This document shows, one piece after another, positions 4,845 through 53,205 of a stretch of 64,000 nt of DNA (position 1 is its first letter; the number at the start of each line of letters is the position of its first letter). Made by a program: the position numbers and the translations under genes. Where the stretch lies: the NCBI RefSeq assembly GCF_025215495.1, contig NZ_CP104302.1, forward strand, positions 2,356,001 to 2,420,000, in the 5' to 3' direction. Source of the stretch: Mycolicibacterium brumae. Its GTDB lineage: Bacteria; Actinomycetota; Actinomycetes; Mycobacteriales; Mycobacteriaceae. The notes beneath the pieces are model-generated. The model was not told where the DNA came from. It saw only the letters and a program-made list of their open reading frames with translations, and made no database searches.

Positions 4845-4976
4845 CAATCCCGAGGCGCTGCGGTGGCCAGTATGGCCGGAAATGTTAGCTGGCACGGTGT
4901 GTCGTGAGCGCCACAGCCCACAGCGCGCCGCCTGATCGGTCGATCCGGGCGAACTGAGCCCGCGGTCGGATTCGCC

Positions 4977-5204
4977 GAGCGTGCGCCCAGGTCCGGTTTC
5001 GGCGGCGAGCGTGCGTCCACGTCCGGATTCGGCGACGAGCGTGCGTCCACGTCCGGATTCGGCGACGAGCGTGCGTCCACGTCCGCGAACTCCCAGGACG
5101 GGGCGAACCTACACGCACCCTCGCGAGCAAAAGCTGACCTGGGCGCACGCTCGCGCCCGGGAACGAACCTGTGTGCGCCCTCGCGCCAAAAGCGACCAGG
5201 GTTT
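4977..5204. repeat. Back-to-back arrays of ~30-bp repeats in opposite orientation
   Basis: About 430 bases between the secreted-protein gene and the tRNA hold no gene. Four units with an exact 30-bp period (unit beginning GAGCGTGCGTCCACGTCCGG) run from 4977 to about 5095; the two middle copies are identical. From 5105 related units (GAACCTACACGCACCCTCGC and variants) follow with a 29-31 bp period but the complementary orientation: GTGCGTCCACGTC in the first set answers GACCTGGGCGCACGC in the second. The block can therefore fold into a large imperfect cruciform. No unique spacers separate the units, so it is not a CRISPR array. Confidence 0.8.
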
Positions 5205-5266: not shown

Positions 5267-5341
5267 TGGTGGTCCCGGCTGGTTTCGAACCAGCGACCTT
5301 CCGCGTGTGAGGCGGACGCTCTCCCACTGAGCTACGAGACC
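5267..5341 (-). tRNA. tRNA-Val (CAC)
   Basis: Reads GGTCTCG...CGGGACC on the minus strand with a seven-pair acceptor stem, D arm GCTC/GAGC, anticodon stem TCCGC/GCGGA with loop CTCACAC (anticodon CAC), T arm GCTGG/CCAGC with TTCGAAA loop, and an encoded ACCA end. It decodes GUG. It is divergent from the three plus-strand tRNAs. Confidence 0.95.
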
Positions 5342-5371
5342 GGGGAATCCGACGTCGTCGGACGAGCCAGA

Positions 5372-5377
5372 ACATTA
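5372..5377 (-). promoter_or_regulatory. Candidate -10 box of tRNA-Val (CAC)
   Basis: TAATGT on the minus strand, about 30 bases before the mature 5' end, which suits a short tRNA leader. Confidence 0.45.
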
Positions 5378-5457
5378 ACACGCAGGCGCCCACGGTCCCC
5401 AATCCCCCGCTGCCGGACGGCGTTCTGCCCGGTGACAGGCCATGTCGGCCAACGGAT

Positions 5458-5487
5458 TTGTGTGGGCGCGCGTGGGTGGACTAGTGT
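5458..5487 (+). promoter_or_regulatory. Promoter of the Gly-Cys-Val tRNA operon
   Basis: TTGTGT (-35, 5458-5463), an 18-bp spacer and TAGTGT (-10, 5482-5487) lie about 37 bases before the tRNA-Gly 5' end. It is the only convincing sigma-A-like pair in the divergent interval. Confidence 0.5.
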
Positions 5488-5524
5488 CGTGCATCGCGAC
5501 CGACGATGATCTCGGCGGTGGCAC

Positions 5525-5597
5525 GCGGATGTAGCGCAGTTGGTAGCGCATCACCTTGCCAAGGTGAGGGTCGCGGGTTCGAATCCCGTCATCCGCT
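5525..5597 (+). tRNA. tRNA-Gly (GCC)
   Basis: GCGGATG/CATCCGC acceptor stem, anticodon stem TCACC/GGTGA around TTGCCAA (anticodon GCC), and TTCGAAT T-loop. CCA is not encoded; the discriminator is T. It is first of a three-tRNA plus-strand operon. Confidence 0.95.
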
Positions 5598-5625
5598 CGA
5601 GGGTGCGACTCGCATCAAACCCAGC

Positions 5626-5696
5626 GGTGGAGTGGCCGAGTGGTGAGGCAACGGCCTGCAAAGCCGTGCACACGGGTTCGATTCCCGTCTCCACCT
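5626..5696 (+). tRNA. tRNA-Cys (GCA)
   Basis: GGTGGAG/CTCCACC acceptor stem, anticodon GCA in the loop CTGCAAA, T-loop TTCGATT, and discriminator T as usual for tRNA-Cys. CCA is not encoded. It lies 28 bases after tRNA-Gly. Confidence 0.95.
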
Positions 5697-5712
5697 CGCA
5701 AGATCTGTTCCC

Positions 5713-5787
5713 GCGCGATTAGCTCAGCGGGAGAGCGCTTCCCTGACACGGAAGAGGTCACTGGTTCAATCCCAGTATCGCGCACCA
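5713..5787 (+). tRNA. tRNA-Val (GAC)
   Basis: GCGCGAT/ATCGCGC acceptor stem, anticodon GAC in CTGACAC, T-loop TTCAATC, and encoded ACCA. It ends the tRNA operon and is followed directly by a terminator. In M. tuberculosis a tRNA-Val of this region carries a prophage (phiRv2, from memory). Here its 3' end is unoccupied. Confidence 0.95.
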
Positions 5788-18157: not shown

Positions 18158-19558
18158 TCAGCGGGATCCGAGCAGGCTCGCCACCGCGCGCCCGGCCGCC
18201 GCCAGACACGCCGGCACACCGACGCCGTCGAGGTAATTGCCCGCCAGCGCCAGCCCGGGCGGCAGCTCCGCGCGCAGCCGCGCCACCAGCCCCAGGTGCC
18301 CGGGGCCGTACTGCGGCATGGCGTCGAGCCAGCGGTGCGTCAGGGCGTCGACCGGGTCGACGGCGATCCCGAACACCGTCTGCAGGTCGGCGACGGCCCA
18401 GGCCAGCAACCGATCGTCGGCGACGCTGGCGGCGACCGTGTCGCCGAACCGGCCGAACGACATCCGCAGCAGTTCGACGTTGCCGGTCGCGCCCCATTTC
18501 CGGGTGGACAGCGTGATGGCCTTGGCGTGCAGACGCTCCCCGGTGGCCACCAGCACGCCGGACTGCGCCGGCAGCGGGGTGCCGCCGGGCACGGCCAGCG
18601 CGACGACGACCGAGGACGCGACCGGGATCCGGCGGGCCAGCTCGGCGGCGGCCGGGGCGGGGCCGGCCAGCAGCGCCGCGGCCCGGGTGACCGGGGCGGC
18701 CAGCACGACGGCGTCGACGCGGTGCTCGACGCCCTCGTCGTCGACGACGCACCAACGGTCGCCGTCGGCGGCCAGCGCCGTCGCCGAGTTCGGTCGCCAC
18801 ACCAGGTCCGAGGCCGACACCAGCGCGTCCAGGAGCACCCGGTACCCACCGTCGATGGCCCCGAACACCGGTCCGGCCGGGCCACTCGGGGCCACCGCGC
18901 GCACCGCGGCGGTCAGGTTCGGGGCGCCGCGGTCCAGCTCGGCGGCCACCGTCGGGACCGCGGAGCGCAGCCCGATGCCGGCCGAGGATCCGGCGTACAC
19001 CCCGGACAGCATCGGGTCGACCGATCGGGTGACGACCTGCTCGCCGAAGCGGTCGCCGACCAGCGCGGCGACCGAGGGGTCGTCCCCGGGCCGCCAGGGC
19101 AGCGCGCGGCCCGGTTCGGCGGCGATCCGGGCCAGCGTGTCGGGGTCGACGAGACCGGCCATCGACGCCGCCGACGACGGCAGTCCGTTGACGGTCCCGG
19201 CCGGCAGCGGGTGCAGCCGGCCCTCGCTGTAAAGCTGCGGCCGCACCCCGGTGGGGACCCGTCGACGGTCGGCGAGCCCGAGTTCGGCCAGCAGCGCCGG
19301 CATCTCGGGGCGGCGCACCACGAACGCCTCGGCGCCGATCTCCATGGTCTGGCCGGCCAGTCGCTCGGTGCGCAGGATGCCGCCGAGCCGGTCGGCGGGG
19401 TCGAACACGGTGATGTGCGCGTCCGGGACCGCGCGGCGCAGCCGGTAGGCCGCGGTCAGCCCGGAGACACCGCCGCCGACGACGGCGTAGCGGCGTTTCA
19501 GGACGACCGGCCTCGTCCTCGCGGAACTACACCGCTCGTCGAACCGGTCGGATTTCAC
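18158..19558 (-). CDS. hemY: Coproporphyrinogen III oxidase HemY (CgoX type)
   Basis: 466 residues, FAD-dependent oxidase. The dinucleotide-binding motif [18 protein letters not shown] starts near residue 26, followed by DRLGGILRT. The C-terminal FAD contact is [12 protein letters not shown]. In actinobacteria this enzyme oxidises coproporphyrinogen III to coproporphyrin III. The GTG start overlaps the hemE stop (GTGA). Residues ~2-20 ([16 protein letters not shown]) are encoded by a palindromic repeat also found inside nhaA. No ATG, GTG or TTG lies between the repeat and the FAD motif, so the repeat must be translated. The normal mycobacterial N-terminus is shorter. Confidence 0.9.
19504..19550 (-). 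repeat. Palindromic coding element, hemY copy
   Basis: On the minus strand it begins CGACCGGTTCGACGAGCGG and ends GAGGCCGGTCG, with CGACCGG/CCGGTCG inverted ends. The core CGACGAGCGGTGTAGTTCC is identical to the nhaA copy, and both copies are read in the same frame as DR(F/L)DERCSSAR. Confidence 0.85.
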
Positions 19559-20616
19559 AACGAGTGCACCAGCGCCACCAGGTCGGTCAGCAGGCCCGGG
19601 TCGGTGGCCGGCAGCACGCCGTGGCCGAGGTTGAACACATGCCCGGCCGCGCCGGCGGCGATCGCCGCCCGGCCGTCGTCGTGCACGGCGCGGGCGGCCG
19701 GTTCGACGACGTCCCAACCGGCCAGCAACACCACGGGGTCGAGATTGCCCTGCAGCGCCCGGCCCGGACCGACCCGGCCGGCGGCGTCGACCAGCGCGGT
19801 GCGCCAGTCCACCCCGACCATGCCCGCGGCCTGCGGGCCGATCGCCTCGGACATGGCGCCGAGCAGTTCGGCGGCGCCGACCCCGAAGTGCGTCATCGGC
19901 ACCCCGGCGGGGGCCAGCGCGTCGAACACCCGGGCGCTGTGCGGCAGCACGTAGTGACGGTAGTCGGCCAGCGACAGGGTGCCGGCCCACGAGTCGAACA
20001 GTTGCAGCGCGTCGACGCCGGCGTCCACCTGCAGCTGCAGGAACGCGATGGTGACCTCGGTCAGCGCCTCCATCAGCCGGTGCCAGAGCGCGGGCTCGCC
20101 GAGCATCATCGCCTTGGTGCGTTCGTGGTGGCGGCTCGGGCCGCCCTCCACCAGGTAGGACGCCAACGTGAACGGGGCCCCGGCGAAGCCGATCAGCGGG
20201 GTGGCGCCCAGCTCGCCGACCAGCGCCGAAACCGCGTCGGCGACCGGGGCGACGGCGGCCGGGTCCAGCCGGCCGATGCCGGACAGGTCGTCGGCGGTGC
20301 GGATCGGGTGGGCGATCACCGGGCCGACGTCGGGCACGATGTCCAGGTCGACGCCCGCGCCGCGCAGCGGCACCACGATGTCGGAGAACAGGATCGCGGC
20401 GTCGACGTGGTGCCGACGGATCGGCTGCAGGGTGATCTCGGTGACCAGCTCGGCGTCGAAGCAGGCGTCCAGCATCCGGTGGTTGGCGCGCAGCGCCCGG
20501 TACTCGGGCAGCGACCGGCCGGCCTGCCGCATGAACCACACCGGGGTGTGCGACGGCGTGCGGCCGGCGATGGCCGCCAGATAGGGCGATTCGGGCAGCT
20601 CACGTCGGTTGCTCAT
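19555..20616 (-). CDS. hemE: Uroporphyrinogen decarboxylase
   Basis: 353 residues, cytosolic. It removes four carboxyl groups from uroporphyrinogen III to give coproporphyrinogen III. Signatures are [16 protein letters not shown] (~27-42), the substrate Asp region [27 protein letters not shown] and the late FNLGHGVLP. It heads the operon hemE-hemY-chdC-methyltransferase. The start at ATG 20616 is supported by TAGATT seven bases upstream and by the [13 protein letters not shown]-terminus; an upstream GTG is unlikely. Confidence 0.95.
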
Positions 20617-20623
20617 CGCAACC

Positions 20624-20629
20624 AATCTA
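20624..20629 (-). promoter_or_regulatory. -10 box, leaderless hemE operon
   Basis: TAGATT on the minus strand, seven bases before ATG 20616. Confidence 0.55.
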
Positions 20630-20710
20630 GCCTGAGCCGCGGGGTTGGTTCTCCCCCACCGGCCGCCCGTGAATCCGGCGCGCCTGCCACGCCGGGCGGC
20701 CCGGAAGGTC

Positions 20711-20716
20711 TAGCGT
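20711..20716 (+). promoter_or_regulatory. -10 box, leaderless DUF3000 gene
   Basis: TAGCGT, seven bases before GTG 20724. Confidence 0.5.
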
Positions 20717-20723
20717 CAAACGC

Positions 20724-21305
20724 GTGACCTCTGTCGAACCGGCCGAGTTCCGGGACGCGGTCGCGGCCATGAACGTCGCGACGACCCGCCCCGAGATCGA
20801 GTTGGGCCCGATCCGCCCGCCGCAGCGGCTGGCGCCGTTCAGCTATGCGCTCGGCGCCGAGGTGCGCCATGCCCACACCGAGGTGATCCCGGAGCAGTCC
20901 GAGGGTGACGCGTTCGGCCGGCTGATCCTGCTGCACGACCCGGAGGGCTCCGACGCCTGGGACGGCACCATGCGGCTGGTCGCCTACATCCAGGCCGATC
21001 TGGACCCCAGCGAAGCCGTCGACCCGCTGCTGCCCGAGGTGGCGTGGAGTTGGCTGGTCGAGGCGCTGAACACCGGCTGTCCGGGACACACCGCGCTGGG
21101 CGGCACGGTGACCGCGACGACATCGGTGCGCTACGGCGACATCTCCGGCCCGCCGCGCGCGCACCAACTGGAACTGCGCGCCTCCTGGACGGCGACGGAC
21201 CTGGCCCTGGACGCGCACGTCCGGGCGTTCTGCGAGGTGCTCGAACACGCCGCGGGTCTGCCGCCGGTGGGGGTGACCAGCCTCGGGTCCCGGTCGCGGG
21301 CCTGA
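20724..21305 (+). CDS. DUF3000 family protein
   Basis: 193 residues, soluble, actinobacteria-specific. Function unknown. Recognisable segments are RPEIELGPIRPPQRLAPFSY and EVAWSWLVEALNTGC, where the lone cysteines sit. No cofactor motif. It lies 13 bp before the RNase D-like gene and divergent from hemE, the same arrangement as Rv2680-Rv2681, suggesting the pair is co-transcribed and perhaps functionally linked to RNA processing. Confidence 0.85.
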   Translation: MTSVEPAEFRDAVAAMNVATTRPEIELGPIRPPQRLAPFSYALGAEVRHAHTEVIPEQSEGDAFGRLILLHDPEGSDAWDGTMRLVAYIQADLDPSEAVDPLLPEVAWSWLVEALNTGCPGHTALGGTVTATTSVRYGDISGPPRAHQLELRASWTATDLALDAHVRAFCEVLEHAAGLPPVGVTSLGSRSRA

Positions 21306-21318
21306 GACACTGGCTTCG

Positions 21319-22566
21319 ATGACTGCTTCCGAACCCGGGACCGATCCCGAACCAGAAGCCGGACCGGAGCCTCAACCTCTCGCCGTCCCGGCCGACGGGG
21401 TGCCCGCGGTGTCGGTGTACGCCGAGGACATCGCCGCCGCGGCCGAACTGCTGGATTCCGGGCACGGCGCGTTCGCGATCGACGCCGAACGCGCGTCGGG
21501 CTTCCGCTACTCCAACCGCGCGTATCTGATCCAGATCCGCCGGGCCGGCGCCGGCACCGTGCTGATCGACCCGGTCAGCCACGGCCGCGACCCGCTGCAA
21601 ACCCTCGCCCCGGTCGCCAAGGTGCTCGACGAGGGCGAGTGGATCCTGCACGCCGCCGATCAGGACCTGCCGTGCCTCGCCGAGCTCGGGCTGCGACCAC
21701 CGGCGCTGTATGACACCGAGCTGGCCGGGCGCCTCGCCGGCTACGACCGGGTGAACCTGGCCGCCATGGTCGCCCGGCTGCTGGGGCTGGGCCTGGCCAA
21801 GGGCCACGGCGCGGCGGACTGGTCCAAACGGCCGCTGCCCGCCGCCTGGCTGAACTACGCGGCGCTGGACGTCGAGGTGCTATTGGAGCTGCGCGACGCG
21901 ATCGCGAACGTGCTGGCCGAGCAGGGCAAAACCGATTGGGCCGCACAGGAATTCGAGTATCTGCGCACCGCCGAGCCGACCGTCACCCGGCGGGACCGCT
22001 GGCGGCGGACCTCCGGGATCCACAAGGTGAAGAATCGCCAAGCCCTCGCCGAGGTCCGCCAGCTGTGGACGGTGCGCGACCAGATCGCCGCCCGCCGGGA
22101 CATCGCGCCGGGCCGGATCCTGCCGGACTCGGCGATCGTGGCGGCGGCTCTGGCCGACCCCAAGACCGTCGACGAGCTGACCGCGCTGCCGGTGTTCGGC
22201 GGCCCCAAACAGCGCCGCCAGGCGAACACCTGGCTGCAGGCCATCGCCGCCGGCCGCGCCGACACCGATCCCCCGCAACTGTCCGAGCGTCAGCCCGGCC
22301 CACCGCCCGCGGTCCGCTGGAGTCGCCGCAAACCCGAGGCCTCGGCCCGGCTGGAGGCCGCCCGGTCCGCGTTGACCGCGCTGTCCGATCAGGTCGGGGT
22401 GCCAACGGAGAACCTGGTGTCCCCGGAACTGGTGCGCAGGCTGTGCTGGGACTGGACGCCCGACGGGCCGGCGCAGCCGCGGATCGAGGCGTTCTTAGCC
22501 GAGAACGGGGCCCGGCCGTGGCAGCGCGAGCTGGTCGGGCCGGTGCTGGCCGGCGCGCTGGGCTGA
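21319..22566 (+). CDS. RNase D-like 3'-5' exoribonuclease with HRDC domain
   Basis: 415 residues. The DEDD-family exonuclease fold occupies ~30-215: FAIDAERASGFRYSNRAYLI (Asp and Glu of Exo I), ILHAADQDLPCL (Exo II Asp) and YAALDVEVLLEL (Exo III Tyr and Asp). An HRDC-like helical domain follows (~235-330, LWTVRDQIAARRDIAPGRIL), as in RNase D. It probably trims tRNA or other structured RNA 3' ends. The ATG at 21319 opens an N-terminal low-complexity Glu/Pro tail. Confidence 0.88.
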   Translation: MTASEPGTDPEPEAGPEPQPLAVPADGVPAVSVYAEDIAAAAELLDSGHGAFAIDAERASGFRYSNRAYLIQIRRAGAGTVLIDPVSHGRDPLQTLAPVAKVLDEGEWILHAADQDLPCLAELGLRPPALYDTELAGRLAGYDRVNLAAMVARLLGLGLAKGHGAADWSKRPLPAAWLNYAALDVEVLLELRDAIANVLAEQGKTDWAAQEFEYLRTAEPTVTRRDRWRRTSGIHKVKNRQALAEVRQLWTVRDQIAARRDIAPGRILPDSAIVAAALADPKTVDELTALPVFGGPKQRRQANTWLQAIAAGRADTDPPQLSERQPGPPPAVRWSRRKPEASARLEAARSALTALSDQVGVPTENLVSPELVRRLCWDWTPDGPAQPRIEAFLAENGARPWQRELVGPVLAGALG

Positions 22567-22583
22567 GCGACGATCAAACGGCG

Positions 22584-22883
22584 TTAAACCTCCGACGACG
22601 TGGCCACCGCGGTGAGGCCGGTGGCCAGCGCGGTGACGGCCAGCACCGACGGCCAGGCGCCGATCTTCTTGGCCAGCGGGTGCGAGGCGCCGAACGCGCC
22701 GAGGTAGGCCGCGCTCAGCGCGGCGGTGACGGCCGGGCCGCGCTTGATCCACTGGCTGCCGGCGGCTACCCCGGCGGCGGCCAGCACGGCGCCGCCGAGC
22801 GGGCGTTTCCCGGAGTAGCGGGCGACGGCGTAGCCGCCGATCAGACCGGCGGCGACGGCGGGAACCGAAAGATCTGTGCTCAT
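22584..22883 (-). CDS. Small Ala/Gly-rich membrane protein
   Basis: 99 residues with about three hydrophobic segments (~5-22, 30-44, 50-68) and a final one (~77-95). Not recognised. The ATG at 22883 overlaps the stop codon of the secreted lipase gene by four bases, so it is the last gene of the dxs operon. Confidence 0.65.
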   Translation of the reverse strand: MSTDLSVPAVAAGLIGGYAVARYSGKRPLGGAVLAAAGVAAGSQWIKRGPAVTAALSAAYLGAFGASHPLAKKIGAWPSVLAVTALATGLTAVATSSEV

Positions 22884-24049
22884 CCGAACAACCCTGCCAG
22901 GAACGGGGTGGAGTCCGGCACCGAGGCCATCACGGTGCCGCTGTGGTCCTGATCGGGGTAGACGTGCAGGGTGACCGGCTGGCCGTTGGCGACCAGCGCG
23001 TCGTTGAACTTCAGCGTCAGCTCCGGGGGCACGTCCCGGTCCAGCATGCCGACGCCGAGGAAGATCGGCCGGTCGTAGCCGGAGCTCGGGATGCCCATGA
23101 AGTCGTCGACGACGGCGGCGAAGTTCGGCAGCGAACTCAGCGGCGCGCTGAAGAGGCCCGGGATCGTCATGCCGGAGAGCTCATCGGAGAGCGGGCGCAG
23201 ACACACCGTCTCGGCCCGGTCGGCCGCGGCCGCCCCGGCCGGGGTCAGCGCGGAGTTCACGTTCAGCTCCGGGTGCGCCTCGCGCAGCGCGGCCAGGATG
23301 TAGGCGGCATACGCGTTGGCGACCGGGGCGAGGTTGGCCGGCGCGGCCATATCCGGTCCGGCGGTCTTGACCATCCGTTCCACACCCGCCGGGGTGCCGG
23401 TGGCCACCACACCGCGATAGTCGAGCCCGGATCCGGCCGACAGTTCGGTGGCCCAGCGCGCGGTCGCGACCGCCGCGCCGCCGCCCTGGGACTGCCCGAC
23501 CACCGCCCACTTCGGCGACAGGTCCAGGTCCAGCTGGTGGGCGGCGATCACCGAGTCGACCACGGACTGGGCGGTGGCGCGGCTGTTGAGGTAGCTCATC
23601 AGGCCGGGGGTGCCCAGGCCGGTGTAGTCGGCGCCGACGACGGCGTAGCCCTGGTCCAACCAGTGCGACAGGTATTCCTTGTCGCGTTCACTGCGGGGGT
23701 TGGCCGAGGGCGCGCAGTCGTCGCCGAGGCCGACGGTGCCGTGCGCCCAGGCGATCACCGGCCAGCCGCCCGGCGGGGCGGGGGTGCGCGGGGTGAACAC
23801 CACGGCGGTGGCCACCGCGGGCGCGTCGTGCTGGTCGATGGTGGCGTAGAGGACCCGGTAGGACGCGGCCGCCGAGGGAACCGACAGCGCCGGGTCCAGC
23901 GGAACCGAGCTGATCAGCGTGCCGTGCGCGCCGATCGTTCCCGAGTAGTTCCGGGCGTCCAGGCCCGACCAGTTCGGGGCGGCGACGGCGATGGCAGGGG
24001 ACATCAGCACGGCGACCATGGTGATCGCCGCTGCGGCAAGCTTTTTCAC
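22880..24049 (-). CDS. Secreted lipase-type alpha/beta hydrolase
   Basis: 389 residues. A Sec signal peptide ([20 protein letters not shown] then AVAA) is followed by a secretory-lipase-family hydrolase. The nucleophile lies in [11 protein letters not shown] (~residue 158), acid in [12 protein letters not shown] (~333) and histidine in YPDQDHSGT (~367). Substrate unknown, probably lipid esters. GTG 24049 overlaps the dxs stop (GTGA), so translation should be coupled to an isoprenoid-precursor enzyme, an odd pairing. The upstream in-frame extension to 24094 lies within dxs and lacks a start of its own. Confidence 0.85.
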
Positions 24050-25947
24050 GCTTCTGAAATTTCCTCGGTTGTGTTGTCTTGTCCGCCAACCCAACCGGTG
24101 ATCCGGTCGGCGATGTCGCGGTCGGTCAGGCCCATTTCGGCGAGGAGCTCCCCGCGCGAGGCGTGCGGCAGGAACTCCTGCGGCACCCCCAGGTCTCGGC
24201 AGCGGACGTCGATGTCGGCGGCCCGCAGCGCCGCCGAGATCGCCGATCCGATGCCGCCGGCCACCCCGTTGTCCTCGCAGGTGACCACCAGCTTGTGCTG
24301 GGCGGCAAGGGATTTCAGCGCCTCCGGGACGGGGATGACCCAGCGCGGGTCGATGACGGTGACACCGATGCCCTGTTCCCGCAGGCGAATCGCCGCGGCC
24401 AGGGCCATCGGGGCGAACGCGCCGACGCCGACCAGCAGCACGTCGGCGCCCAATCCGTCGGCCGGATCGGCGAGCACGTCGACCCCGTCGAGTCGCCGCA
24501 GCGCCGGAATATCGGATCCCACAGCGCCTTTGGGGAACCGCAGCACGGTCGGTCCGTCGGTGACCGCCAGTGCTTCGCCGAGTTCCTCACGCAGCGTCGC
24601 CGCGTCGCGCGGCGCGGCCACCTTGACGCCGGGCACCACCGGAAGGATGGACAGATCCCACATGCCGTTGTGACTGGCGCCGTCGGGTCCGGTGACCCCG
24701 GCCCGGTCCAGCACCACGGTGACCGGCAGTTTGTGCAGCGCCACGTCCATCAGCAGTTGGTCGAAGGCCCGGTTCAGGAAGGTCGCGTAGACCGCGACGA
24801 CCGGGTGCAGCCCGCCCATCGCCAGGCCGGCCGCCGACGTCATCGCGTGCTGCTCGGCGATGCCGACGTCGAACAGCCGGTCGCCGAAACGCTCCCCGAA
24901 CGCGCCGAGGCCGGTCGGGCCGGGCATCGCCGCGGTGATCGCCACCACGTCGCGGCGGCGGCCGCCGATCCGGATCAGTTCGTCGGAGAAGATCTCGGTC
25001 CAGCCCAGGGCGGCTTCGGAGGTCGCCAAACCGGTCAGCGGGTCGATGACGCCGCAGGCGTGCATCTGCTCGGCCTCGTCGGCCTCGGCCGGGCCGTAAC
25101 CCATGCCCTTGCGGGTGACGACGTGCACGATCACCGGCGCGTTGAAGCCGCGGGCCAGCCGCAGCGCCTGCTCGACGGCGTGCTCGTCGTGGCCGTCGAT
25201 CGGGCCGACGTACTTCAGGCCGAGGTCGGAGAACATCGCCTGGGGCGCCACCGCGTCCTTGATCCCGGCCTTCACCGAGTGCACCAGCTGGTAGGCGAAC
25301 TCCCCCACCAGCGGGAGGCCGCGCAGCGCCTGGCGGCTCTGCTGCAGGAACCTCTCGTAACCCGGCTGCAGCCGCAGTCCGGACAGGTGTTCGGCCAGAC
25401 CGCCGATGGTCGGGGCGTAGCTGCGCCCGTTGTCGTTGACCACGATCACCACCGGCCGTTTGGCCGCGGCGATATTGTTCAGCGCCTCCCAGCACATCCC
25501 GCCGGTCAGCGCGCCGTCGCCGACGACGGCGACCACGTGCCGATTTCGGTGTCCGGTCAGCTCGAAGGCCTTGGACAGCCCGTCGGCGTAGGACAGCGCC
25601 GCGGAGGCGTGGCTGGACTCCACCCAGTCGTGCACGCTTTCGGCGCGGCTGGGGTATCCGGACAGCCCGTCCTTGCAGCGCAGGGTGTCGAAGTCGTCGA
25701 CTCGGCCGGTCAGCATCTTGTGCACGTAGGCCTGGTGGCCGGTGTCGAAGATGATCGGATCGTGCGGCGAGTCGAACACCCGGTGCAGGGCGAGGGTCAG
25801 TTCGACCACGCCGAGGTTGGGTCCCAGGTGCCCGCCGGTCGCCGCCACCTTGTGAACCAGGAATTCGCGGATGTCACGGGCGAGTTCGTCGAGCTGAGGC
25901 TGGCTAAGGTGCTGCAGATCTGCGGGGCCGCGGATCTGATCAAGCAT
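24046..25947 (-). CDS. dxs: 1-deoxy-D-xylulose-5-phosphate synthase
   Basis: 633 residues, thiamine-diphosphate enzyme that condenses pyruvate with glyceraldehyde 3-phosphate, first step of the MEP pathway to isoprenoids such as decaprenyl phosphate. Visible are [16 protein letters not shown], the ThDP motif [17 protein letters not shown] (~153-169), the catalytic [15 protein letters not shown] (~366-380) and C-terminal [16 protein letters not shown]. Start ATG 25947 is preceded by TAGACT at six bases. It heads the operon dxs-lipase-small membrane protein. Confidence 0.96.
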
Positions 25948-25953
25948 CCCGAC

Positions 25954-25959
25954 AGTCTA
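25954..25959 (-). promoter_or_regulatory. -10 box, leaderless dxs operon
   Basis: TAGACT on the minus strand, six bases before ATG 25947. Confidence 0.55.
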
Positions 25960-26089
25960 CTCGCGCGTTCCCGTCCGGTCGGCCAGAGCCACGCGTTGCG
26001 CCGGCCGAGTCTCCAGGGGGGCGCTCTCAGCGATTTCACAGCTATGGGCTACGCTGGCTCTCAGAAAACCGAACCTCGACCATGACGGG

Positions 26090-27319
26090 ATGACCGCCGT
26101 GAGTTCTGCCGCAGAATCGGGATTGATCTATCTGGTCGCCCCGAGCGGCAACCCCAATTACGGCGACGAGTTCATCATCCGCGCCTGGCTGCGTTACCTG
26201 GCGAAGGTGGCCCCCGCCGCCGAGGTGGTGGTGGACTGCCACACTCCCGGCCAGGCCTCGGTGCTGCTGACCCGCTGGCATCCGAACGTGCGCTTCGTGG
26301 ACACCATGTGGCGGATCTGCTTCGAGACCGCGCAACTGCCCGCCGCCGAGGCCGCCGCCGTCGCCGCCGACGTGCTGGCCAATCCGGGTCGGCTGCCGCG
26401 CATCGCCTCGGGCGTGGACCTGCTCGCGCGCGCCGACACCGTGCACCTGGTCGGCGGCGGCTACGTGAACGTGGTCTGGTCCCACCACGTGGCCCTGCTG
26501 GCGACCGCCGCCGCCGCGGCCCGGCAGTTCGACGCCCGGGCGGTGGCCACCGGGCAGGGACTGCTGCCGATCGGCGACGACGAGTGGTCGGCGTTGCTGA
26601 GAGAGCTGATCGACGACTTCGCCGTGTTCGACGTCCGCGACGAGCCGTCGTACGAGGTGATCGGCCCGGCCGATCCGCGGCACCGGTTCACCGGCGACGA
26701 CGCCTGGCTGGACGCCGAAGAACCCGCCAACTACAACGCCGAATCCCGCGCGGCCGACCGCGACCTGGTGTTCTGCCTGCAGTCGGACCTGATGGAGGAC
26801 TTCGCCGACGGCGAGGGCGTGGACAGGCTGGCCCGTGTCGTCGACGACGTCGTGGAGCGATGGGGCGTGCCAGATTCTCAGATCGCGTTCCTGGAATGCA
26901 TCCCCGGCGCGGACCGCCGGGTCTTCGACAGGGTCGCCGGCCGGTTGCCGGCGGCGGTGTTCGTGCCATTCACCGAACTGTGGAACCGCGGGCTGCCGGC
27001 GCGCCCCGGCCAGACCTGGGTCAGCACCCGGTTCCATCCGCACCTGTTGGCCGCCGCGGCCGGCGCCAACGGCATCGCGCTGTCCGGCCGCAGCGACTAC
27101 TACCCCGTCAAACACCGATCGCTGACCGAGGCGGGCTCGCGCTGGCAGGTCACCGACAGCGTGCACGTGCCCGATGACCCGCCCACCGACGGCGGGTTCC
27201 CGGCCGAGGACACCGCCGCGCTGGTGGCCGGCAAGACCGCGCTGGCCAACGAGCTCTATCCCCCGCCGTCGGCGTGGCGCCGGGTCGCCCGCGCGTTGCG
27301 CACCCGGGCGGGGCGATAG
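26090..27319 (+). CDS. Polysaccharide pyruvyl transferase-like protein
   Basis: 409 residues, WcaK/CsaB-type fold. The N-terminus LIYLVAPSGNPNYGDEFIIR gives the GN-GDE motif typical of the family, and the C-terminus has WVSTRFHPHLLAAAAGANGI, where R/H-x-H contacts phosphoenolpyruvate. It would add a pyruvate ketal to a cell-wall or capsular glycan. There are no other glycan genes nearby, so the acceptor is unknown. Start ATG 26090; a GTG at 26099 is possible. Divergent from dxs. Confidence 0.75.
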   Translation: MTAVSSAAESGLIYLVAPSGNPNYGDEFIIRAWLRYLAKVAPAAEVVVDCHTPGQASVLLTRWHPNVRFVDTMWRICFETAQLPAAEAAAVAADVLANPGRLPRIASGVDLLARADTVHLVGGGYVNVVWSHHVALLATAAAAARQFDARAVATGQGLLPIGDDEWSALLRELIDDFAVFDVRDEPSYEVIGPADPRHRFTGDDAWLDAEEPANYNAESRAADRDLVFCLQSDLMEDFADGEGVDRLARVVDDVVERWGVPDSQIAFLECIPGADRRVFDRVAGRLPAAVFVPFTELWNRGLPARPGQTWVSTRFHPHLLAAAAGANGIALSGRSDYYPVKHRSLTEAGSRWQVTDSVHVPDDPPTDGGFPAEDTAALVAGKTALANELYPPPSAWRRVARALRTRAGR

Positions 27320-27328
27320 CCGAAGACG

Positions 27329-28675
27329 CTAGTCCGTCGGCTTCTGGTACACGTCGGGGATCCCGTCGTCGTCGGCGTCGACGGCGTCGGCCTCCGCGAT
27401 CCGGCGGTAGGCCCGGTTGCGGCTGCCCAGCACGATCGCCGCCAACCCGGCGGCGACCAGGCTCCCGACGAACACCCCGACCTTGACGTGGTCGCCGTCG
27501 GGACTGCCGTAGCCAAACGCCAGCTCGCCGATCAGCAGTGACACGGTGAATCCGATGCCGGCCAGCAGAGTGACCCCGAACACATCGCGCCAGGTCAGCT
27601 CGGCGTCCAGGGTCGCTCGGGTGAATCGGGCCAACAACCAGGTCGCGCCGAAAATGCCGATCGGCTTGCCGGCCACCAGACCGACCAGCACCCCGATCGT
27701 CACCGGGGCGCTCAGCGAGTCCAGCAGGCCGGTCAGGCCGCCGACGGTCACCCCGGCGGCGAAGAACGCGAACACCGGGATGGCGACGCCGGCCGAGAAC
27801 GGCCGGATGAGGTGCTCGAACCGGTCGGTGTCCAATGCGACCGACCTCTTCCTCGCGGAACTACACCGCTCGTCGAGTCGGTCGGTCGCGGCGTGTTTGC
27901 CCAGCACCGGCACGGTGAAGCCGAGCGCCACCCCGGCGACGGTGGCGTGGATGCCGCTGGCGTGCACCAGCGCCCACACCGTCACCGCGAGCGGTAGCAG
28001 GATCCACCAGCGGTGCAGGCCGCGCTGCACCGCGATGGCGAACAGCGCGAACGGGATCAGCGCCCACAACAGCGGGCTCAGCGCCAGGTCGTCGGTGTAG
28101 AAGAACGCGATGATGGTGATGGCCAGCAGGTCGTCGACGACGGCCAGGGTGAGCAGGAAGATCCGCAGCGCCGGGGGCAGGAAGCTGCCGAGCACCGCCA
28201 GCACCGCGACGGCGAACGCGATGTCGGTGGCGGTCGGGACCGCCCAGCCGACCAGGGTGTCGTGTGACCCGGCGGCCAGGTTGATCGCGACGAAGATCAG
28301 CGCGGGGGCGACCATGCCGCCGACGGCGCCCAGGATCGGCACCACCGCCCGGGACAGGTCGCGCAGGTCCCCGGCGACGAACTCGCGTTTGAGCTCGAGT
28401 CCGACCACGAAGAAGAACACCGCCAACAGACCGTCGGCCGCCCAGGACGCCAGCGACAGGTCCAGGTGCAGCTGCGCGGGCCCGACGACGATGCCGGCCA
28501 GCCCGTGGTAACTGTCCGACCAGGGCGAGTTGGCCCAGATCAGCGCGATGGCCGCGGCGACCAGCAGGATCAGGCCGCCGTTGGTCTCATCGCGGAGCAC
28601 CCCGGCCAGCCGGGACGCCTCCGGCCAGGAACCTCGGGAGAAGAAGCGGGGACGCTGCGGTGCGGATTCAGACAC
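27329..28675 (-). CDS. nhaA: Na+/H+ antiporter NhaA with repeat insertion
   Basis: 448 residues, about twelve transmembrane helices. The ion-binding aspartates lie in the family motif TLAVVDDLLAITIIAFFY, with the unwound-helix segment AVPTATDIAFAVAVLAVLG. It exchanges sodium for protons and serves pH and salt homeostasis. Residues ~262-280 ([17 protein letters not shown]) are an insertion in the cytosolic linker between VPVLGKHA and FEHLIRPF. They are encoded by a 53-bp palindromic repeat, read in the same frame as a copy in hemY. Start at ATG 28675. This gene occupies the place where M. tuberculosis has arsenic-type transporter genes. Confidence 0.92.
   Translation of the reverse strand: MSESAPQRPRFFSRGSWPEASRLAGVLRDETNGGLILLVAAAIALIWANSPWSDSYHGLAGIVVGPAQLHLDLSLASWAADGLLAVFFFVVGLELKREFVAGDLRDLSRAVVPILGAVGGMVAPALIFVAINLAAGSHDTLVGWAVPTATDIAFAVAVLAVLGSFLPPALRIFLLTLAVVDDLLAITIIAFFYTDDLALSPLLWALIPFALFAIAVQRGLHRWWILLPLAVTVWALVHASGIHATVAGVALGFTVPVLGKHAATDRLDERCSSARKRSVALDTDRFEHLIRPFSAGVAIPVFAFFAAGVTVGGLTGLLDSLSAPVTIGVLVGLVAGKPIGIFGATWLLARFTRATLDAELTWRDVFGVTLLAGIGFTVSLLIGELAFGYGSPDGDHVKVGVFVGSLVAAGLAAIVLGSRNRAYRRIAEADAVDADDDGIPDVYQKPTD
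27837..27889 (-). repeat. Palindromic coding element, nhaA copy
   Basis: 53 bp with perfect 10-bp inverted ends GCGACCGACC and GGTCGGTCGC. Core as in hemY. It adds about 18 codons without stop or frameshift to the interhelical linker of NhaA. Confidence 0.88.
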
Positions 28676-28742: not shown

Positions 28743-29912
28743 TCAGTCTACGGTCAACAGCGCCACGCACTCGACATGATGGGTCAGCGGGAACGCGTCG
28801 AACACCCGCAGCTGCTCCACCCGGTACCCGGCGCTGCGGTACCCGCCGATGTCGCGGGCGAACGACGCGGCCTCGCAGCCGATGTGGATCAGCCGCGGCA
28901 CCCCCGCCGCGGCGACCGCCTCGATGACCTCTCGCCCGGCGCCGGTGCGCGGCGGGTCCAGCACCGCCACCGCCGCCGGCTCCAGCGCGCCGACCGCCCG
29001 GCGCACCGAGTCGGTGACGAACCGGACCTGCGGCAGGTCGGCGAGCGCGTCACGCCCGGCGCGCGCGCCCGCCCGGGAGGTGTCCACGCTGACCACCCGC
29101 GCGCCGGCCTCCGCCAGCGCGGCGGCGAACAATCCCGCGCCGCCGTAGAGATCCCAGGCCGGCGCCCCGTCGGGGGGCTGCGCCCAGTCGGCGACCAGCG
29201 CGCTGTAGGTGGCGGCGGCGTCGCGGTGGGCCTGCCAGAACGCGGTGACCGGCAGCCGCCAGGTCCGCCCGGCCACCCGCTGGGTCGCCAGGTACTCGCC
29301 CTGGGCGACGCGGGTGCGCCGGCCCTTGCCGGCACACACCACGTGCCGTTCCCCGTCGTCGTCGAGCACGACGTGCACCTGGTCGCCGGCGCGCAGCACG
29401 TCGGCGGGCAGCTCAGCCAACAAGCCGGCGGGCAGCTGCCCGCAGTTCAGGTCGGTGACCAGCTCGTCGCTGTGGAAGCGGTGGAATCCGGGGTGGCCGT
29501 CGGCGCCGACTTCCAGCCGCACCCGGGTCCGCCACCCGGTCGGGCCGCCGGCACCAACCGGTTCGGCGACCAGTTCCGCGCCGTCGAACCCACCCAGCCG
29601 GGACAGCTGGTTGGCGACCACCGCGCCCTTGAGCCGACGGGCCGCCGCCGGCGCGGCGAAGGACAGGTCGCAGCAGCCGGCGCCGTGTGGGCCGGCGATC
29701 GGGCACAGCGGGTCGATCCGGTCCGGGGACGGCTCCAGGATCTCGACGGCCTCGGCGTGCCAATAGCCCGAACGCCGGCTGGTCACCCGGGCGCGGACCG
29801 TCTCGCCCGGCAGCGCATACCGGACGAAGACCACCCGGCCGTCGTCTCGGGCCACGCAGCTGCCGCCGTTGGCGGGCGCGTCGGCGGTCAGCACCAACTC
29901 GTCGGCGCTCAT
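28743..29912 (-). CDS. TrmA/RlmD-type RNA m5U methyltransferase
   Basis: 389 residues. An N-terminal TRAM-like domain (ELVLTADAPANGGSCVARDD) and cysteines in CPIAGPHGAGCCDL suggest an Fe-S or zinc site. The C-terminal half has SAM motif DLYGGAGLFAAAL, LDPPRTGAGREVIE and the catalytic-cysteine segment IHIGCEAASFARD. It methylates uridine C5 in tRNA or rRNA; the exact target is unknown (Rv2689c homologue). The ATG at 29912 is provided by the last unit of the 59-bp tandem array, where it overlaps the stop of the preceding mini-ORF. Confidence 0.88.
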   Translation of the reverse strand: MSADELVLTADAPANGGSCVARDDGRVVFVRYALPGETVRARVTSRRSGYWHAEAVEILEPSPDRIDPLCPIAGPHGAGCCDLSFAAPAAARRLKGAVVANQLSRLGGFDGAELVAEPVGAGGPTGWRTRVRLEVGADGHPGFHRFHSDELVTDLNCGQLPAGLLAELPADVLRAGDQVHVVLDDDGERHVVCAGKGRRTRVAQGEYLATQRVAGRTWRLPVTAFWQAHRDAAATYSALVADWAQPPDGAPAWDLYGGAGLFAAALAEAGARVVSVDTSRAGARAGRDALADLPQVRFVTDSVRRAVGALEPAAVAVLDPPRTGAGREVIEAVAAAGVPRLIHIGCEAASFARDIGGYRSAGYRVEQLRVFDAFPLTHHVECVALLTVD

Positions 29913-30147
29913 TCGCTCGCTCCTCCGCAGGGCTCGTCCCTCGCCCCGCATCGTCGACTCGCGGCGCTCATTCGCTCGCTCCTCCGCAGGGCTCGTCCCT
30001 CGCCCCGCATCGTCGACTCGCGGCGCTCATTCGCTCGCTCCTCCGCAGGGCTCGTCCCTCGCCCCGCATCGTCGACTCGCGGCGCTCATTCGCTCGCTCC
30101 TCCGCAGGGCTCGTCCCTCGCCCCGCATCGTCGACTCGCGGCGCTCA
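29905..30147 (-). repeat. MIRU-like 59-bp minisatellite of coupled mini-ORFs
   Basis: Four identical 59-bp units plus the start of a fifth (starts at 29905, 29964, 30023, 30082, 30141). On the minus strand each unit carries GGAGGA, then GAATGAGCGCC. Each ATG opens 20 codons (MSAASRR...GGASE) whose TGA overlaps the next ATG. The chain begins at a TTG overlapping the permease stop (30145-30147) and ends on the ATG of the methyltransferase (29912). The four mini-ORFs span 30086-30148, 30027-30089, 29968-30030 and 29909-29971. The design matches the described mycobacterial interspersed repetitive units. Copy number is likely variable. Confidence 0.92.
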
Positions 30148-32139
30148 ATCGACGAACCCCCGTCGGGTGTCACCCGGCGCGGGCTGCGGTTCCAGCGTCT
30201 TGCGGCGCTGCGAGGAATGCAGCTGCCAGGGCACCGAGGTGACCATCACGTTCGGTTCGAACAGCAGCCGGGTCTTGAGCCGCAACGCGCTCTGGTTGTG
30301 CAGGATGTGCTCCCACCAGTGGCCCACCACGTACTCGGGGATGAACACCGTGACGACGGTGCGCGGAGACTCCTTGGTGATCCGTTTGACGTAACCCAGC
30401 ACCGGCCGGGTGATCTCCCGATACGGCGAGGCGATCACCTTCAGCGGCACGCTGATGTCGCTGTCCTCCCACTGGTGCACCAGGGCGCGGGTTTCGCCGT
30501 CGTCGACGCTGACCGAGATGGCCTCCAGAATGTCGGGCCGGGTCGCGCGGGCATAGGCCAGCGCCCGCAGCGTCGGCATGTGCAGCTTGGACACCAGCAC
30601 GACGGCGTGGTTGCGGCTGGGCAGCACCACCTCGTGCAGCCCGTCCTCCACCTCGGCCAGCTCCTGGGCGACCGCCGCGTAGTGCCGATGGATCAGCTTC
30701 ATCAGGGAGAACAGCACCGCCATGGCCAGGATCGCGATCCACGCGCCGGCGAGGAACTTCGTCACCAGGACCACGACCAGCACCGAGGCGGTGCAGACCA
30801 GGCCGACGGTGTTGACCAGGCGGGACCGGATCATGGCGCGTCGCGCGGCGGGGTCGGATTCGGTGCGCAGCAGCCTGCTCCAGTGCCGGATCATCCCGGT
30901 TTGGGACAGGGTGAAGGACACGAACACCCCGACGATGTACAGCTGGATCAAGGTGGTGACCTCGGCGTCGAACATCACCACGAAGACGATCGCCGCCATC
31001 GCCAGGAACAGGATGCCGTTGGAGAACGCCAACCGGTCCCCGCGGGTGTGCAGCTGGCGCGGCAGGTAACTGTCCTGGGCGAGCACCGAGCCGAGCACCG
31101 GGAAGCCGTTGAACGCGGTGTTGGCGGCCAGGATCAGGATCAGGGCGGTGGCGACGGTGATGGCGACGAAGCCGAGGTGGAACTCGCCGAACACCGCCTG
31201 GGCGAGCTGGGCGACGAGCGTCTTCTGCCGGTAGTCCTCGGGCGCGCCGGTCAGCTGGGTGGCCGGGTGCTCGACGATCTGCACCCCGGTCTTCTCGGCC
31301 AGCACGATGATGCCCATCAGCAGCGCCACCGAGATGCCGCCGAGCATCAGCAAGGTGGTCGCGGCGTTGCGGGACTTGGGTTTGCGGAAGGCGGGCACCC
31401 CGTTGCTGATCGCCTCCACCCCGGTCAGCGCCGCGCAGCCCGACGAGAACGCCCGGGCCACCAGGAACACCAGCGCCAGCCCGAGCACGTCGCCGTGGTC
31501 GGCGTGCATGGTGAAGTCGGCGGACTCGGCGCGGACCTCGTCGCCGAGCACGAAGATCCGGAACAGCCCCAGGCCCAGCATGCCGAAGATGCCGACGATG
31601 AACGCATACGTCGGGATGGCGAACGCGATCCCGGACTCCCGCACCCCGCGCAGGTTGATCGCCATCAGCAGCAGGATCGCCGCGACGGCGACGAGCACCT
31701 TGTGCTCGGCGACGAACGGGGCCGCCGAGCCGATGTTGGACATCGCCGCCGACACCGACACCGCCACGGTCAGCACGTAGTCCACCAGCAGCGCGCTGGC
31801 GACGGTCAGTCCGGCGGTGGGGCCCAGGTTGGTGGTGGCGATCTCGTAGTCACCACCGCCGGACGGGTACGCGGTGACGTTCTGCCGGTAGCTGGCGACC
31901 ACCACGATCATCACGAACGCGACGGCCAGCCCGATCCACGGCGTCATCACATACGCGGACAGCCCCGCGATGGAGAGCACCAGGAAGATTTCCTCCGGCG
32001 CGTAGGCCACCGAGGAGATGGCGTCGGAGGCGAACACCGGCAGCGCGATGCGCTTGGGCAGCAGAGTGCTGCCCAGCTTGTCGCTGCGGAACGGCCGCCC
32101 CAGCACCAGCCGTCGCGCCGCGGTGGAAAGTTTGGACAC
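30145..32139 (-). CDS. APC-superfamily permease, probable partner of CeoB/CeoC
   Basis: 664 residues. About twelve membrane helices in the first 480 residues: LLPKRIALPVFASDAISSVA, YPSGGGDYEIATTNLG (the broken-helix Gly motif) and FSSGCAALTGVEAISNGVPAF. The remainder is a cytosolic domain (VVLVSKLHMPTLRALAYARA) resembling universal-stress-type or KUP-like tails. Substrate not shown. It diverges from ceoB/ceoC, two potassium-regulatory proteins, so potassium or amino-acid transport is likely. GTG 32139 (SKLSTAARR) was chosen; TACCCT lies eight bases upstream. A TTG at 32148 would add three residues. Confidence 0.82.
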   Translation of the reverse strand: MSKLSTAARRLVLGRPFRSDKLGSTLLPKRIALPVFASDAISSVAYAPEEIFLVLSIAGLSAYVMTPWIGLAVAFVMIVVVASYRQNVTAYPSGGGDYEIATTNLGPTAGLTVASALLVDYVLTVAVSVSAAMSNIGSAAPFVAEHKVLVAVAAILLLMAINLRGVRESGIAFAIPTYAFIVGIFGMLGLGLFRIFVLGDEVRAESADFTMHADHGDVLGLALVFLVARAFSSGCAALTGVEAISNGVPAFRKPKSRNAATTLLMLGGISVALLMGIIVLAEKTGVQIVEHPATQLTGAPEDYRQKTLVAQLAQAVFGEFHLGFVAITVATALILILAANTAFNGFPVLGSVLAQDSYLPRQLHTRGDRLAFSNGILFLAMAAIVFVVMFDAEVTTLIQLYIVGVFVSFTLSQTGMIRHWSRLLRTESDPAARRAMIRSRLVNTVGLVCTASVLVVVLVTKFLAGAWIAILAMAVLFSLMKLIHRHYAAVAQELAEVEDGLHEVVLPSRNHAVVLVSKLHMPTLRALAYARATRPDILEAISVSVDDGETRALVHQWEDSDISVPLKVIASPYREITRPVLGYVKRITKESPRTVVTVFIPEYVVGHWWEHILHNQSALRLKTRLLFEPNVMVTSVPWQLHSSQRRKTLEPQPAPGDTRRGFVD

Positions 32140-52391: not shown

Positions 52392-53066
52392 ATGGGCGAC
52401 AGCAGCGACACCCCCAACGCCGACCACGACGTGAAGCTCACCGAACGTCAGCGGACCATTCTCAATGTGATCCGGGAGTCGGTGGCCAGTCGCGGCTACC
52501 CACCGAGCATCCGTGAGATCGGCGACGCCGTCGGCCTGACCTCCACCTCGTCGGTGGCCCACCAGTTGCGCGCGTTGGAGCGCAAGGGCTATCTGCAGCG
52601 CGACGCCAACCGGCCGCGCGCGGTGAACGTCCGTGGCTCAAACGACGCGCTGGCCCCGGCCACCGAGGTCGCCGGCTCCGACGCGCTGCCCGAGCCCACC
52701 TATGTGCCGGTGTTGGGCCGGATCGCCGCCGGCGGCCCGATCCTCGCCGAGGAAGCCGTCGAGGATGTCTTTCCGCTGCCGCGCGAGCTGGTCGGCGAAG
52801 GCTCGCTGTTCCTGCTGAAGGTGGTCGGCGAGTCGATGGTCGACGCGGCCATCTGCGACGGGGACTGGGTGGTCATCCGCCAGCAGAACGTGGCCGACAA
52901 CGGTGACATCGTCGCGGCCATGCTCGACGGCGAGGCCACCGTGAAGACGTTCAAGCGCACCGCCGGCCAGGTCTGGCTGATGCCGCACAATCCCGCGTTC
53001 GATCCCATTCCGGGCAACGACGCCGTCATCCTCGGCAAGGTCGTCACCGTCATCCGACGAGTGTGA
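52392..53066 (+). CDS. lexA: SOS repressor LexA
   Basis: 224 residues. N-terminal winged HTH ([20 protein letters not shown]) binds SOS boxes. The S24 peptidase domain has the Ala113-Gly114 cleavage site in RIAAGGPI, Ser148 in [10 protein letters not shown] and Lys185 in EATVKTFKR. RecA-stimulated self-cleavage induces DNA-repair genes. The 3' end (VTVIRRV and stop) is duplicated in two following 65-bp repeats. Divergent from chiZ with three SOS boxes between. Confidence 0.97.
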
Positions 53067-53205
53067 GGCAGCTCGACCAGCCACTCCGGTGGCCCCGAAA
53101 GAGCCGGGCCACCGTCATCCGACGAGTGTGAGGCAGCTCGACCAGCCACTCCGGTGGCCCCGAAAGAGCCGGGCCACCGTCATCCGACGGGTGTGAGGCA
53201 GCTCA
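53046..53205. repeat. 65-bp tandem repeat duplicating the lexA 3' end
   Basis: Units start at 53046, 53111 and 53176 (the last truncated after ~30 bases). Each begins ACCGTCATCCGACGAGTGTG, that is the last lexA codons and TGA, and contains CGGTGGCCC...GGGCCACCG hairpins (53087-53114 and 53152-53179). A stem-loop therefore follows each copy of the stop codon, and the array may act as a tandem terminator. Confidence 0.9.

Follow-up and report, generated by a model that had tools for sequence, protein, structure and literature searches.

A palindromic hairpin family of mycobacteria, probably mobile, with copies in frame within hemY and nhaA of Mycolicibacterium brumae

A short palindromic sequence lies in frame inside two unrelated genes of Mycolicibacterium brumae, hemY and nhaA. 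Both are found on a stretch of 64,000 nucleotides (assembly GCF_025215495.1, contig NZ_CP104302.1, positions 2,356,001 to 2,420,000 of the forward strand), which is called the window here; coordinates of four or five digits refer to it, and longer ones to whole contigs. Other genomes and loci are cited by working numbers (G and L; M. brumae is G000). The original prediction, made from the letters of the window, had proposed an in-frame palindromic element in these proteins, and this idea is supported, since the sequence is dispersed through the genome and missing at both sites from the relatives examined. At a probability of roughly 0.8, it is a non-autonomous, palindromic mobile hairpin element of mycobacteria that resembles the mycobacterial interspersed repetitive units (MIRUs) and is tolerated as peptide. 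Within a gene, each copy most likely adds about 12–21 amino acids to the protein.

Two window copies and a dispersed family

The copies lie at 19504–19550 (hemY) and 27837–27889 (nhaA), both on the minus strand, exactly where they had been predicted. The nhaA copy has the perfect 10-bp inverted ends claimed for it (27837–27846 and 27880–27889). The arms of the hemY copy, CGACCGG and CCGGTCG (19504–19510 and 19544–19550), were read from the sequence, and this pair was not reported by the repeat finder at its thresholds. The two copies share their coding strand and give the predicted peptide, ..DR(F/L)DERCSSAR(T/K)R... The window contains two exact matches of a 19-base core and, at up to three mismatches, three matches, compared with a mean of 0.05 in shuffles; the third match, at 63020 with three mismatches, is taken as chance, since one of its frames reads LLLDEPFSSLD, presumably an ABC-ATPase-like motif. 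Searching the whole 3.99-Mb genome for the core, as had been proposed, returns the same two exact matches and five further sites at two to three mismatches.

Both copies are flanked by direct repeats 57 bp apart, which the original prediction had missed. At nhaA, a direct-repeat search gives CGGTCGGT (ACCGACCG on the coding strand) at 27822–27829 and again at 27879–27886, where it overlaps an arm of the element. At hemY the repeat is TTTCA (TGAAA on the coding strand) at 19496–19500 and 19553–19557, the latter containing the hemE stop (TCA, 19555–19557); being only five bases long, it would not count alone. The hemY gene (18158–19558, minus strand) probably starts at the GTG at 19558–19556, a start placed from the junctions in relatives. 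This GTG overlaps the TGA stop of the gene directly upstream (19555–20625, minus strand), which we take to be hemE-like from reading and gene order, and the element would thus form about residues 3–19 of HemY. The stretch from the element to the conserved GGG motif contains no ATG, GTG or TTG, so the claim that no alternative start lies behind it holds for these three codons, and a CTG could still serve. The nhaA gene (27329–28675, minus strand) encodes a Na+/H+ antiporter with 19 extra residues (about 264–282). In a structure model of NhaA (mean pLDDT 65.5) these residues have a pLDDT below 50 and come after one helix; the following helix is drawn from residue 275 and therefore overlaps the end of the insert.

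The possibility, raised in the original prediction, that other mycobacteria carry the same residues is not borne out. NhaA has a match in 89 of 147 other genomes, from which the loci of 29 relatives were taken and 23 aligned (alignment A3); none of the 23 has the 19 extra residues. Likewise, the copy is found in 0 of 29 hemE/hemY junctions of relatives. Other, shorter additions do occur at both places. Six of the 23 NhaA relatives (L203, L207, L214, L215, L216, L218) have different extensions of 2–9 residues at the same linker, and at least five relatives (L160, L162, L165, L184, L185) have different short inserts at the same GTGA of the hemE/hemY junction, some of them purine-rich and MIRU-like by eye, which suggests that this junction is a repeated landing site.

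In M. brumae, a 60-base query recovers many diverged copies, and a pattern of the two core ends gives 27 matches (at least two of which look like chance) as opposed to none when the pattern is read backwards. A covariance model, R1, was built from 31 of 35 copies and gives at least 78 matches in the genome at E ≤ 1 (at least 67 at E ≤ 0.01) in at least 55 clusters, training copies included; R1 counts here and in other species are lower bounds, as the best 150 candidates per genome were scored. The two window copies, both in the training set, are matched at 2375496–2375554 (hemY, G000:C1, E 5.0e-8) and C1:2383830–2383888 (nhaA, E 2.6e-10). One match, at 366193 (E 0.31) in a gene that presumably encodes a MutY-like protein, looks like chance. 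The unit consists of a left arm of about 7–10 bases, a core of about 20–50, a right arm that complements the left one, and a tail some 12 bases long. Copies are single or in arrays of up to five, at a spacing of 47–65 bp. The commonest M. brumae core is TTCGACGAGCGAGGAACGAGCGAGGAAGAGG, and the hemY and nhaA copies belong to a second, hairpin subfamily with CGAGCGGTGTAGTTCCGCGAG, the hemY core being GACGAGCGGTGTAGTTCCGCGAGGACGAG.

The family extends to other species. With strict filters and E ≤ 0.01, R1 finds it in three of 148 genomes of the genus (M. brumae, G012 and G093), although these filters lose weak copies and recover 37 of the 78 M. brumae matches. The hairpin core, at up to three mismatches, is found in 18 of 396 genus genomes including M. 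brumae, with 19 matches in G303, 17 in G392, 24 in G410 and 27 in G418, where R1 gives at least 19, 10, 41 and 35, respectively. An identical 29-base core, GACGAGCGGTGTAGTTCCGCGAGGAAGAG, is shared by nhaA here and other loci in G012, G303 and G418. Three genomes have what appears by eye to be one orthologous copy with the same flanking sequence (L250, L255, L259), so that some insertions may predate a species. Searches of plasmids gave no match, and those of phages a single weak one, which is taken as chance. No description of the present family was recognised in the portion of the open-licence PMC literature consulted.

Stems, repeats, stop codons and reading frames

The outer arms differ between copies and yet nearly always pair. 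Among 31 M. brumae copies they are 84.2% paired, compared with 71.7% when shuffled, with two-sided changes in 8 of 11 pairs; on five measures, four were reached by none of 500 shuffles and one by 20. Across several species, with 62 of 79 copies retained by the anchor filter, pairing is found in 411 of 434 arm cells, against a shuffled mean of 334 and maximum of 355 in 2000 shuffles. The core of the hairpin subfamily forms a second stem with a YGTNNTT-like loop. Here, 89 distinct copies, tandem neighbours counted, have CGG/CCG (68), CAG/CTG (12), GGG/CCC (6), GAG/CTC (1) or a G-T wobble (2) in the inner stem. For 52 of these 89, hand-chosen and mostly one per locus (alignment A5), 97.0% of the cells of the two-stem structure are paired, a value reached by 0 of 500 shuffles, while slid controls give 36–50%; RNAalifold finds the same pairs and one more. 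Such pairing fits RNA and single-stranded DNA alike.

Direct repeats are found beyond the window. Repeats of at least 8 bases between the left-arm region and the right flank occur in 21 of 55 M. brumae clusters, whereas swapped flanks give a mean of 3.25 and a maximum of 7; some of the longer ones are remnants of another tandem copy. The clearest example is the phosphoenolpyruvate (PEP) carboxylase gene of G410, where the 11-bp TCGATTTACGC stands on either side of 46 bases and the protein reads ..SIYA[insert]SIYA... A 20-bp direct repeat is found at G410 2055876, and one of 14 bp (by eye) in the RNase H gene of G093, where the copy precedes the domain. Of the features of miniature inverted-repeat transposable elements, terminal inverted repeats are present, and some of the clusters have target-type direct repeats. 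Left arms are often part of the direct repeat, and copies with identical cores can have different arms, which raised the idea that each insertion takes its arms from the target. As a general rule this was rejected: the CCGGGTT group has a near-constant right arm and a variable left flank, the arms CGACCGG/CCGGTCG recur at another G303 locus, and comparisons between same-core copies give 37 one-sided and 26 two-sided differences.

A further regularity concerns stop codons. There are 19 coding open reading frames in M. brumae that run into a same-strand element and end no more than 60 bases from its start; in 13 of them the stop is a TGA at element position 9, and in three a TAG at position 4. 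Unit length was measurable in 12 of the 13 TGA clusters and is 47, 55, 56, 61, 62 or 65 bp, never a multiple of three. We interpret this as targeted insertion, or survival, in a fixed register with the host gene's stop codon, and it is comparable to the reported placement of MIRUs at start codons (PMC12548453).

Within genes the pattern is different. Seventeen M. brumae clusters, chosen by judgement, are intragenic and five lie at gene starts, with frames open. Family matches span the insert or flank it on either side in PMT_2/YkcB, CbiM, PrmC, two nonribosomal peptide synthetase (NRPS) genes, YaaA, a 2-oxoacid dehydrogenase E2, SRAP, and a major facilitator superfamily transporter with five tandem copies. 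Other hosts are a third NRPS gene, a DUF58 protein, two ATP-binding cassette proteins, glutamate racemase, RsmH and an HflX-like GTPase. The single reading frame suggested by the two window copies does not hold for the family, as the 22 in-gene and gene-start clusters use five frames (7, 7, 5, 2 and 1), and a fixed frame was rejected. The hairpin subfamily bears out the claim of a TAG in another frame, its hemY unit having stops in two of six frames and its nhaA unit in one, but the commonest 54-bp unit has none in any of the six. Varying frames combined with gene disruption had been named as the outcome that would speak against a coding element; frames do vary, and a clear split gene was not found among 110 clusters in four genomes. 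In 11 of these the frame shifts on one strand across the element, and most look like gene junctions. In three of the 11, at G303 3100303 (L387), G410 314863 (L361) and G418 715768 (L352), the frame difference could be a gene junction or an altered gene end.

Unit length, or repeat distance, could be measured in 13 of the 17 internal, three of the five gene-start and 21 of the 33 other M. brumae clusters. Among internal clusters 12 of 13 values are divisible by three, compared with 4 of 21 among the others (p = 4.5e-5); one of these four, at 425127, falls in the terminal part of an oligopeptidase-B-like gene. The three gene-start clusters are all multiples of three and were kept out of the test. 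An automatic rule places 14 of the 55 clusters of G303, G410 and G418 inside genes. Hosts in other species include nuoF, dapF, PEP carboxylase, NAD kinase and a NarK-family transporter, with family matches across or flanking the insert for PEP carboxylase, NuoF, M13 and S58 peptidases, an acyltransferase and NAD kinase. The NarK-family transporter (L339, G418:C1:4102100-4104900) has five tandem 57-bp copies in frame, reading DRFDERC(S/T)SA(R/T)KRPVA(A/E)GT, which is nearly the peptide of HemY and NhaA.

Proposed movement and competing explanations

A mobile hairpin would account for these observations as follows. An enzyme acting in trans would recognise the hairpin as its substrate, the unit would be inserted with duplication of part of the target, and arrays would then grow by slippage. 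Insertions would survive at low cost where they fall on a stop or start codon, or where they add 54, 57 or 63 bp (18, 19 or 21 residues) without a stop inside a gene. A more specific version, for which the odds are somewhat below even, is that the family is adapted to coding sequence and has a stop-locked sister class: a commonest unit open in six frames, in-gene periods of 54, 57 and 63 bp and the stop-registered class would together make insertion nearly translation-neutral. The unit could then be moved as a single-stranded hairpin by an unrecognised enzyme other than Y1, possibly that of the MIRUs.

Several points weigh against a mobile element kept as peptide. No mobilising enzyme was found in a search in which Y1_Tnp was the only partner looked for, and movement itself is inferred. 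The window copies fold no better than shuffles as DNA, 27 and 38 of 200 shuffles being as good on the coding strand and 13 and 27 of 200 on the other, so the hairpin is supported by co-variation and not by energy. Translation is predicted from the open frames. The coding evidence for the internal hosts at 645958 and 1925638 is weak on one side, with no Pfam match, and copies at gene starts need not be translated; RsmH, for instance, could begin at a GTG behind its copies. One internal repeat in M. brumae gives a length of 64 bp, and two of the internal multiples of three (69 and 81 bp) depend on repeats of 7–8 bases that are perhaps chance. In G303, G410 and G418, where length was measurable in 12 of 14 internal and 26 of 41 other clusters, multiples of three make up 11 of 12 and 16 of 26 (p = 0.12, not significant), since many hairpin units outside genes also measure 57 bp.

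Of the alternatives, the best survivor, though an unlikely one, is that the hairpin is mainly a control element in RNA or DNA (a terminator, a protection of mRNA 3' ends or a protein-binding site) whose spread has been selected, with in-gene copies as by-products. The conserved stems and the fixed left-arm position of the incoming TGA in 13 clusters would suit such a role. Against this, no Rfam family was found at the window copies at gathering thresholds, and 22 of 55 clusters lie in genes or at gene starts, in both orientations. It is improbable that the copies are ordinary minisatellites, arisen by local slippage and alike through GC-rich composition, with no mobile element involved. Many copies are indeed tandem at the 47–65-bp spacing, and the leuA 57-bp variable number tandem repeat (VNTR) is a known mycobacterial precedent (PMC2704214). 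In contrast, slippage leaves unexplained the same core at many loci in several species, the result of the backwards pattern, the co-varying stems and the single copies flanked by direct repeats, and the identical 29-base core at nhaA and in three other genomes speaks strongly against it.

A very improbable explanation is that no peptide is made because the ribosome skips hairpins inside genes, as with mitochondrial bypassing elements, or because they are removed. Hairpins with flanking direct repeats inside conserved genes, for example nuoF and PEP carboxylase, would fit it, but skipping would require neither multiples of three nor an open frame, and both are seen in the internal M. brumae inserts. 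Least probable of all are repetitive extragenic palindromic (REP)-like elements moved by a RAYT transposase (Y1, IS200-like), the enzyme type linked to REP elements: the copies are palindromic and dispersed, their TGTAGTT loop contains GTAG and the copy-carrying G303 and G012 have one Y1 match each, but the Y1_Tnp family (PF01797), matched in 5 of the 20 genomes searched, is absent from the copy-carrying G000, G392, G410, G418 and G093, and G002 and G107, with nine Y1 matches each, are not among the three genomes positive for R1. A resident Y1 enzyme is thus disfavoured by its absence in G000, G410 and G418, and a lost or plasmid-borne one is possible.

Known systems and other repeats in the window

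MIRUs, which are a basis of tuberculosis typing, insert at DTGA stop/start junctions. To our knowledge, the mechanism by which they and their kin move has not been established. In the present family, the hemY copy lies at GTGA and 13 clusters have a TGA at a fixed position; nhaA and the other internal copies lie elsewhere. The statement that no mycobacterial equivalent was known is not supported: MIRUs have been described as apparently mobile, with insertions at start codons (PMC12548453), and leuA contains an in-frame 57-bp repeat of 19 residues (PMC2704214). MIRUs are dispersed or tandem units of 40–100 bp at stop/start junctions (PMC12548453, PMC2734929); the spacing, the arrays of up to five and the 55 clusters found here correspond in size and arrangement, and the junction placement may be shared by part of the copies. 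Copies of the MIRU core, judged by eye, also have short complementary arms, often GCGCCG/CGGCGC, around a purine-rich core, several with ATGA repeats on both sides. The sequence differs. A MIRU core has no match in the M. brumae genome at up to three mismatches and is found in 72 of 148 genus genomes, whereas R1 finds its family in three (M. brumae included), and many of the present copies are intragenic. For the 54-bp unit the likeness to MIRU sequence is weak, with 2 of 1000 shuffles doing as well; the hairpin unit shows none (647 of 1000). The element therefore works like a MIRU with a different core; it is not a MIRU by sequence and may be a distant relative.

The predicted resemblance to the palindromic elements of Rickettsia holds for the effect on proteins and the in-frame placement. 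These elements are also palindromic, lie in frame in unrelated metabolic genes and are kept as peptide (PMC10969869), much as in-frame insertion into unrelated protein genes is found here. They differ in being about 150 bp long (PMC10969869), compared with 47–65 bp, five frames and an additional stop-registered class in mycobacteria. In Mycobacterium tuberculosis, leuA VNTR4155 has a 57-bp unit that is tandem, adds 19 residues per copy and is made as protein; it is described as a VNTR locus of leuA (PMC2704214), and its peptide is unlike the present frames by eye. PARCELs likewise combine dyad symmetry with coding sequence and spread between genes, but they are tandem amphipathic domains of 25 residues in open reading frames of unassigned function and membrane proteins of other taxa (PMC2996958). 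REP elements are small palindromes in many copies as well, but they are 20–40 bp and extragenic (PMC3733652), and M. brumae has no Y1 transposase match.

The family offers handles on MIRU-type movement: its stems co-vary, its target repeats reach 20 bp, its stop-codon register is fixed and some genomes have tens of copies. It further suggests that peptide inserts in core proteins (PrmC and NhaA in M. brumae, NuoF and PEP carboxylase in relatives) can originate from selfish DNA, a way of changing protein length that is best known from Rickettsia.

The window contains further repeats. A MIRU-like array of a 59-bp unit in 4.3 copies (29897–30151, minus strand) ends on ATGA in the start region of the following gene (28743–29951) and is not a copy of the present element; 10 of 1000 shuffles are as good against MIRU, 280 against the 54-bp unit and 118 against the hairpin unit. 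A 65-bp tandem repeat in 2.5 copies with 98% match is found at 53045–53204. Another, of 30 bp in 3.7 copies, lies at 4976–5085, and its unit contains CCGGATTCGGCGA, which resembles the left end seen in some hairpin copies. Four tRNA genes are found nearby, at 5270–5784 (Rfam).

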